The notes beneath the pieces were generated by a model. It was not told the origin of the DNA, made no database searches, and saw nothing but the letters and a program-made list of their open reading frames with translations. The position numbers and the translations under genes were made by a program. From Endozoicomonas sp. G2_2 (GTDB taxonomy: Bacteria; Pseudomonadota; Gammaproteobacteria; Nevskiales; Salinisphaeraceae), in NCBI RefSeq assembly GCF_017744135.1, contig NZ_JAGHQU010000008.1:124001-188000 (forward strand): DNA of 64,000 bases, given 5' to 3'. Positions 12,763 to 51,884 of this stretch are shown here, one piece after another (positions within the stretch are counted from its first letter, which is position 1; every line of letters starts with the position of its first letter).

Positions 12763-12936
12763 AACCGGGGCGCGCGAAGGGATGTTCTATGTACAAGCTT
12801 GGGTCATGAATGGGTGCAGTCAAGCGTGGGGGGTCGAGACGAGAGGGATTGGCCGCTGTTCTCGTCCTAGTTGTCTTATTGCCAGGGAGTTCAGTTTTAG
12901 TCGTTTGAAGTTGGCTGGTTCAATGCCGGCGTCGTG

Positions 12937-13599
12937 GGATCAACGGGGCGGGTGAATTTTTACTTGGGGTTTCGCACTGTTGTGCGAGTGTCTTTTATTT
13001 GCTTGTCCAAATAAAAGTCACCAAAACAAAAGACACCCTGTCTTGCGTCGGCGCTTCGCGCCGATGCCCTGCGCGGCTCCGTCCGCAAGCGGGCCAGCCG
13101 GAAACTCGCTACGCTCAAACATCCGGCTGTCTTATCCGCTTGCGGCCTCCACTGCTCGGCGCTACGCCCAAGGGGGGCAATACAAACTAAGACCGGCTCG
13201 CTGACGCTTCGCCAAGATCGCGAAGCGATCTTTGGTCGGACAACGCCGAAGGCGAGTCCGACCCGGAACGCAGCCAGAAACCGAAACGTTCGACTCGGCA
13301 GCCGTCCCAACGCCGTAGCTGGGTAGGCCGCGCCTGTATTCGGGCCCCGTGTGGAGCGACGAGAAGCGCAGGGCCGAAGGGTGTCCGGCGCACTGCGCCG
13401 GTGCGGACAGCATGTCTGAGGATCGCCAAAGCGATCCGAGTTCTGGCCGCATCCCTTCGGACCGAGCATCGCAGTGCACCGGCGCTTCGCGCCGGCGCGC
13501 CATCTGGGTGTCTTTTTCCTTTGCTTACTTTCTTTTGGACAAGCAAAAGAAAGTGAGTCGCACAGCAGTGCGAAACAAAAGGAACGACAAACTCGTGAG
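12937..13599. repeat. Structured non-coding repeat element, copy 1
   Basis: The core at 12963-13575 is matched by an inverted copy at 51249-51859, with looser similarity out to the listed ends. The element is bounded by imperfect terminal inverted repeats of about 75 bases. Each begins with a small hairpin (TCGCAC..GTGCGA at 12972-12987) and then an A/T-rich stem (CTTTTATTTG / CAAATAAAAG at the left, CTTTCTTTTG / CAAAAGAAAG at the right). Inside are further hairpins, such as CGGCGC/GCGCCG at 13049-13063, CCGCAAGCGG/CCGCTTGCGG at 13083-13145 and GGATCGC/GCGATCC at 13420-13437. Short open frames here are by-products of the inverted repeats. No transposase is present. Confidence 0.85.
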
Positions 13600-13734
13600 T
13601 GCTAAAGAACTCGCGGGAAGGAAAGCCAGTATTACACCGACGATCCGCTCCGATCGTTTAAAAACTACGAAAAGCCGCGACGCGATTTCATATGCGAGCC
13701 GGACTCGCCGCGGCACCGCGTTAGACTGACAGCC

Positions 13735-51224: not shown

Positions 51225-51884
51225 CTCACGAGTTCGACGGACCTTTTGTTTCGCGCTGCTGCGCGACTCACTTTCTTTTGCTTGTCCAAAAGAAAGTAAA
51301 CAAAGGAAAAGGACACCCGGACACAGCGCCGGCGCAAAGCGCCGGTTCACTGCGACACGCAGCGGCGACGGGATGCGGCCAGAACTCGCGTCGCTTTGGC
51401 GACGCTCAAACAGGCTGGCCGCACCGGCGCAGTGCGCCGGACACCCGTCGCCGCTCCGTGTCTCCGTCGCCGTGCAACGGGCCTGAATACAGACGCCAGG
51501 CCCATAGTGAGAGTCACCTACGCCGGCAAGCCGATTTTCAGCTTGGGGCTCTGCTCTCGTCGGATTAGGCGCACGCCTAACGCAACACAGAAAGCCCAAC
51601 CTTGAGCGAGCGACAGCGAGCTTGCCTGTATAGGGTCCCCTTGGGCGCAGCGCCGAGCAGTGGAGGCCGAAAGAGAAAAAGACAGCCGGATGTTTGAGTC
51701 GCGCGTAGCGCGGCGAGTTTCCGGCTGTCCTCTTTCGGCCGGAGCCGCGCAGGGCATCGATGCGCAGCATCGACGCAAGACAGGGTGCCTTTTGTTTTGG
51801 TTACTTTTATTTGGGCAAGCAAATAAAAGTGACTCGCACAGCAGTGCGAAACCCCAAGCCGAAATTGACCCGCGTCATTGATCC
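51225..51884. repeat. Structured non-coding repeat element, copy 2 (inverted)
   Basis: This is the reverse-oriented partner of the element at 12937-13599; the core is 51249-51859. Block order and spacing are the same over almost the whole length, and the size agrees within a few bases. Several stems differ from copy 1 on both arms at once and stay paired: CGATGC/GCATCG at 51758-51772, CCGAAAGAG/CTCTTTCGG at 51667-51738, GCGTCGC/GCGACGC at 51388-51405 and the end hairpin TCGCGC/GCGCGA at 51251-51266. It fills the space between the convergent ligase and livM genes. Confidence 0.85.

Follow-up and report, generated by a model that had tools for sequence, protein, structure and literature searches.

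A dispersed gammaproteobacterial repeat of two outward-facing structured units with a proposed triplex-pseudoknot tail

A 64,000-nucleotide stretch of the genome of Endozoicomonas sp. G2_2 (the window) contains two inverted copies of a non-coding element, at 12937-13599 on the plus strand and at 51884-51225 on the minus strand, and we consider it reasonably probable that they belong to a dispersed non-autonomous repeat built of two outward-reading structured-RNA units, of which the units with GGA-bearing heads found elsewhere serve as CsrA decoys. Most interspersed repeats of bacteria are classed as parasites with no other function. The family described here displays selection that fits a triple helix, seen from comparative genomics alone and including a base code, G facing a T-A inversion, not expected from mirror symmetry; it also places the orphan family TwoAYGGAY in a larger context. 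It further raises the possibility of dozens of dispersed decoys buffering a global regulator, for which a genus that lost CsrA offers a natural experiment.

Both copies were found by sequence and genome search where the original prediction had placed them, with 77% identity to each other, and all four of the paired stem changes quoted for them are present as written. The interpretation as a two-copy curiosity is ruled out by a search of the source genome (3.73 Mb, 33 contigs), in which 88 matches resolve into 30 places; 27 of these span both element ends, and they are 71-90% identical to the query. Matches are also present in all 13 of the 13 congeners searched, where the left and right modules are often separate and some lie in arrays. 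Two of these species (G011 and G012) have five sites in common, mostly with 95-98% identity.

The element had been described as one stem-rich body, which has to be corrected. The left module, when reverse-complemented, can be aligned with the right one, which identifies the two as homologous units of about 240 nt, facing outward on either side of a centre of about 125 bp. Alignment of the units places the left unit of copy 1 at 12963-13198 (outward strand minus) and the right unit at 13324-13581 (outward strand plus), the gap between the unit matches at 13199-13323 being the centre; in copy 2 the right unit lies at 51243-51500 (minus) and the left unit at 51621-51858 (plus). Read outward, each unit comprises a junction head, a hairpin, the motif GGGTG, a pyrimidine linker and then the hairpins H2 and H1; on this strand the head is variable and the tail conserved by sequence comparison. 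The head of the right unit of copy 1 (plus strand throughout) is a stem junction at 13374-13460, formed by CCGAAGGG/CCCTTCGG, CCGGCGC/GCGCCGG and TGCGG/CCGCA (helices 1-5 of the covariation count) and including at 13413-13442 a GAG-type internal loop (TGTCTGAG...CGAGTT) around the hairpin GGATCGC/GCGATCC (helix 5). A further hairpin at 13479-13495 (helix 6) precedes the tail. Here the pseudoknot strand TGTC at 13509-13512 (helix 7), whose partner is GACA in the loop of H2 (13538-13541), is followed by the pyrimidine linker at 13513-13523, a proposed third strand which, by linker-arm comparison, has one extra C relative to the purine arm in copy 1, and then by H2 at 13525-13556 (helices 8-9) and H1 at 13558-13573 (helix 10). 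The corresponding parts of the left end, on the minus strand, are the linker with the pseudoknot strand at 13023-13035 (linker-arm comparison), H2 at 12992-13017, with the purine arm AAATAAAAG and a linker G opposite its T (third-strand comparison), and H1, placed from the sequence, at 12972-12987. Alignment of the ends extends the conservation beyond H1 by about 42 bp on the left (plus-strand feature 12934-12971) and by 33 bp on the right (plus-strand feature 13574-13606), after which the ends fade. The predicted terminal inverted repeats are present in reduced form, about 8 bp long (about TCACGAGT), imperfect and fading outward.

The claim that a folded single strand is under selection is supported by covariation of the unit, by a covarying pseudoknot and by the code of the third strand. 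For the unit, a structure of 60 pairs written from the window sequence was scored on an alignment of 62 units, selected from 78 in the own genome, its genus and other genera. Paired cells amount to 94.9%, compared with 39.5-44.6% when the partners are slid by 1-3 columns; a structure taken from one aligned sequence is favoured on this measure, which does not explain the double changes. The latter affect 38 of the 60 pairs and 311 cells, compared with 20-40 cells in the slid controls, so that the covariation first read from two copies holds over the wider set. No shuffle among 500 reached any of five measures; we rely on the slide control because relatedness among units inflates the shuffle control.

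Sequence comparison further indicates that the H2 loop pairs with the bases just 5' of the linker. A pattern that fixed most of H2 and left the partner free gave 117 hits in named genomes, and in 113 of them the partner fits the loop class: GCAC follows in 63/63 hits with TG loops, RGGC in 32/33 with CC loops, RGAC in 12/13 with TC loops and RGCC in 6/7 with GC loops, the sole CG loop showing no fit. Among 61 aligned ends of 71, pairing in the four pseudoknot pairs reaches 95.5%, and each of the four shows double changes; the slid control of the 18-pair tail structure gives 40-53% in the same 61 ends. Exact pseudoknot matches were obtained in 80% of 172 outward instances, compared with 24% when linkers and hairpins were swapped.

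Comparison thus shows a tail with the pairing pattern of an H-type pseudoknot, H1 following, in which the linker fits as a third strand on the H2 stem (T.A-T, C.G-C, G.T-A). Aligned parallel to the H2 purine arm, the linker attains a mean match of 7.62 out of 8 over the 172 outward instances, compared with a mean of 7.06 (s.d. 0.03, maximum 7.15, 1000 permutations) for swapped linkers and hairpins. In a register fixed by the A and G positions alone, the base opposite A is T in 1103/1117 cases, that opposite G is C in 169/184 and that opposite T is G in 15/17, and the 26 C positions face C in 20 cases and T in six; among the sequences compared, these T and C inversions of the purine arm were seen in the window's genus. 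Many right ends in the own genome, including that of the window, carry an extra C in the linker. A mirror repeat would give A opposite T and G opposite C and is ruled out at the inversions, where these bases occur in 0/17 and 0/26 cases, respectively; the third-strand code therefore differs from mirror symmetry. G is the base that matches a T-A inversion in a parallel triplex. At the sequence level the arrangement, with the third strand parallel to the purine arm and T.A-T and C.G-C triplets, is that of the pyrimidine motif, and we propose that the linker and H2 may form an intrastrand triplex of this kind.

These results also bear on an explanation without selection, in which palindromes and mirror repeats alike are kept by template-switch mutation and by gene conversion between copies. 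The alignment suggests that copies exchange blocks and that the arms of simple hairpins are correctable against each other, and the simple hairpins could indeed be explained by palindrome-correcting mutation. The covarying pseudoknot, which varies in concert across genera, and a third strand that never has the mirror base at inversions could not, and GGA loops (see below) sit on one strand. We regard this explanation as already largely refuted and as highly improbable.

Pyrimidine loops lying in the major groove of stem 2 of an H-type pseudoknot are known from telomerase RNA and other triplex pseudoknots. The tail is likened to these by fold only, the present case being a dispersed bacterial repeat. 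An intrastrand triplex motif, BoxC, has been studied by Holder (2015; PMC4666352) and, in the accessible part of that paper, is GC-rich and of purine type. Like the proposed tail, BoxC is there a single strand folding with Hoogsteen pairing and with pyrimidine and purine segments; the tail differs from this description in being A/T-rich, in following the pyrimidine type on the outward strand and in having a covarying pseudoknot. A literature search with six H2 strings returned one unrelated plant paper, and the literature within the search, mostly outside subscription papers, held nothing recognised as this repeat family beyond TwoAYGGAY.

The tail is widespread in the class. A covariance model of it, built without the pseudoknot and applied at a cut-off of E <= 1e-6, matches in 80 of 369 sampled genomes and in 64 of 271 genera. 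Regions from 40 of the 80 matching genomes, covering 28 families, supplied a fresh set of 51 distinct sites, in which the pseudoknot is present, G.U allowed, at 46 sites and the triplex register holds within one mismatch at 50, although the triplex matches are partly pre-selected because the model contains the sequence profile of the linker. A perfect triplex occurs in 42 of 43 usable sites (7.98/8 observed, permuted mean 7.14) and a Watson-Crick pseudoknot in 38 (permuted mean 25%, maximum 49%). T inversions from three further families carry G in 3/3 cases (L346, L355 and L366); two C positions, one facing C and one facing G (L342 and L345), occur in hairpins whose loops were set one pair off by the script. 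An origin from phages or plasmids was dropped: a sequence search of phages gave no match to the element, viral contigs gave no hits of the H2 pattern, and plasmids yielded nothing beyond a 52-base piece found in three Pasteurella records. Of these, the record inspected (L086:1950-2110) holds a lone tail between dapF and a DUF484 gene, with the pseudoknot strand TGTA, the loop TACA and a fitting linker and without a GGA head or H1.

Judged from base-pair types and loop placement, the outward strand appears to be the favoured one, the bias in GGA loops being stronger than a modest bias in G.U pairs. On the outward strand, G.T cells outnumber A.C cells by 69 to 27 in the first 51 rows of the alignment and by 93 to 51 in all 62, and by 18 to 6 in structures predicted without G.U. 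The consensus energy of the right module is better outward (-107.5 versus -79.2), and that of the left module is slightly better inward (-67.9 versus -62.3 outward). Upstream of the tail, GGA-bearing hairpin loops number 92 outward versus three inward in 76 named units, 14 versus none in 15 units of a neighbouring family, 44 versus none in 44 units of the fresh set, nine versus one in 29 units of the own genome and six versus two in 40 congener units, the background being 5.0% per strand (4767 hairpins). By a looser criterion, 7/29 own and 6/40 congener units have a GGA loop.

Two types of head were distinguished, one with A(N)GGA hairpins and one with the internal loop TGTYYGA...GAGYY, and they rarely occur together. 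GGA heads prevail among named units (44, with 10 GAG heads, one unit having both and eight neither) and in the neighbouring family (nine, with five GAG heads); the units of the own genome divide into 27 GAG heads, no GGA heads, one with both and one with neither, and those of congeners into 35 GAG heads, no GGA heads and three with neither. In Solimonas, a GAG-type and a GGA-type unit share one element (L139:5276-5836, and L072). The 91 units of other genera contain 106 GGA loops, 95 of them A(N)GGA, and A(N)GGA loops occur in 54/77 units of other genera versus 1/67 in the window's genus.

As sequences, the A(N)GGA loops resemble CsrA/RsmA sites. CsrA is canonical in all 24 genomes examined outside the window's family and, in the family's other three genomes, canonical in one, weak in one and without a match in one. 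Within the window's genus, eight of 14 genomes have no CsrA match and six have a weak or degenerate one, none of which extends beyond position 42 of 53. Completeness is only 81-87% in three of the 14. The C-terminal stretch VHREEI, found in three canonical CsrA proteins, has been lost in the genus homologues, being absent from four translated ones (L372-L375, from G000, G003, G004 and G002) and from the weak one of G014. The decay of CsrA together with the rarity of GGA heads in this genus is what binding of CsrA by GGA heads predicts, counted as one clade and one correlated event. Fold and tail persist where CsrA is missing, as in G008, whose single contig has 31 element matches and no CsrA match, and the GAG head is also present in genomes that have CsrA.

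Comparable arrangements of GGA motifs are known from non-coding RNAs. TwoAYGGAY (Rfam RF01731) is presented, in the accessible parts of its sources, as two hairpins with AYGGAY loops and as a candidate CsrA-binding RNA (Weinberg, 2010, PMC2864571; Gardner, 2014, PMC4333381), and it belongs to the same Rfam clan as RsmW. The TwoAYGGAY model hits the head in some units, immediately 5' of the triplex tail: this placement, on the same strand, was found in six of 39 sources scanned (14 of the 39 at the gathering score only), above the cut-off in L139, L063 and L329 and below it in L343, L093 and L103. However, the model covers the head alone, leaves 33 of the 39 sources and the window's element unmatched and, as matched, lacks the tail, the paired arrangement and the dispersed repeat. 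In the window RF01731 gives no match at the gathering cut-off or at E up to 5, and no known Rfam family was retained there, none matching at gathering and none credibly at E up to 5. RsmW (PMC4950607) and RsmU (PMC7694677) are, in the accessible text, Csr/Rsm decoy RNAs with several exposed GGA motifs, as in the GGA-type units; as described there they are single genes, whereas the putative CsrA sites of the element lie in a multi-copy repeat with a triplex-pseudoknot tail. At L345:102-157, directly 5' of a triplex tail, RsmW matches with 31 bits, below its cut-off of 52; the unit and RsmW may be related.

In the reading as a repeat of outward-reading RNA units, each unit would be transcribed outward, the triplex tail would protect the 3' end of this RNA or present it to a protein, and GGA heads would bind CsrA/RsmA, so that the repeat would act as scattered decoys while the element spreads. 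In the window's genus, which has seen CsrA decay and keeps the head with the tandem G.A internal loop, the fold would have to serve something else as well, in the simplest case letting the element persist or spread. We put forward only tentatively the wider reading of a modular RNA repeat, selfish or domesticated and of a previously unnamed class, with interchangeable protein-binding heads (CsrA decoy or tandem G.A) on a shared triplex-pseudoknot tail, which would have spread class-wide by an RNA-dependent or single-strand-dependent route and lost the CsrA head in the one genus examined where CsrA decayed.

The element had been proposed to be a non-autonomous mobile element, a structured RNA or both. 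The dispersed repeat and the selected fold stand, and mobility is indirectly supported, by absence at three sites only. At the first the element is missing from all congeners whose flanking gene was found (0/7), at the second from all 12, not all of which keep the same neighbours (G004, for example), and at the third no complete element exists in the 11 congeners whose contig covers the site. Some of these absences may be losses, since G004 retains a remnant of the left end, H1 and the right end at site 3 and G005 a right-end-like piece at site 1. The element encodes no transposase, as predicted, being too short and too variable to do so.

MITEs and REP/REPIN sequences are intergenic, non-coding and multi-copy, with hairpins near their ends. 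The element resembles them in each of these respects, as far as the accessible description of Pseudomonas fluorescens repeats goes (PMC2718517; the sequences of R178 and R200 lay outside the comparison); it differs in the conserved fold of about 240 nt at each end, in its fading ends and in that no target duplication or partner transposase was found. The main alternative is a MITE-like DNA element: single-stranded DNA would adopt the hairpins, pseudoknot and triplex, a transposase or recombinase acting in trans would recognise them, and any RNA would be incidental. Dispersed copies that are present or absent at orthologous sites would suit it, as would structured ends facing outward on both sides, and G.T pairs and pyrimidine triplexes are possible in DNA too. 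Against this, the ends fade and no target duplication was seen by eye in the flanks of the copies, the sites compared yielding no clean empty one; the GGA loops on the outward strand are left unexplained by a role in DNA; and mobilisation by a RAYT was dropped, the genome having two Y1 transposase loci, neither with element ends beside it. We think this alternative possible and rather unlikely. No ends shared with an autonomous transposon were found, genome-wide for Y1 transposases and among the few long outward pairs read. The long pairs in L343, L332 and L088, read by eye, enclose ORFs, and one between two outward tails in Methylomonas (L088:5530-5964) resembles by eye a Y1-type (RAYT-like) transposase. 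A long copy in G012, considered as an autonomous version, is instead interrupted: an insertion sequence with the ends GAGGGTGTAGA...TCTACACCCTC lies inside the H2 loop of the element (L308, contig C1, about 1560-2770 of the reverse complement).

The surroundings of the copies point to a different possibility, a bidirectional module serving as terminator or RNA-stabilising end for the genes on both sides. By a simple gene caller, the 29 own copies with both neighbours lie between convergent genes in 16 cases, co-directional genes in 12 and divergent genes in one, compared with six, 35 and five of the 46 gene pairs of the window, and five terminator-like patterns were found versus 1.5 expected; a pattern search for promoters found none. 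Convergent positions may, however, only reflect the harm of other insertions, and in the named genomes single units are oriented without regard to the neighbours (10/12/10/8 of 40, by crude gene calls), leaving a 3'UTR role tied to a neighbouring gene unsupported. We consider a 3' end module improbable.

Shortened forms of the repeat, or mini-elements, consisting of a left end, a single H1 and a right end, were observed at L294, L297, L303 and L305. Such sites number zero in the own genome and are present in four of 14 genomes of the genus, for which reason their interpretation as universal targets was dropped and they are read, probably correctly, as deletion products. In L305 the mini-elements adjoin complete units in an array. 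In a Stagnimonas unit (L117:710-949) a short palindromic insert, about 30 nt long, breaks the foot of H2.
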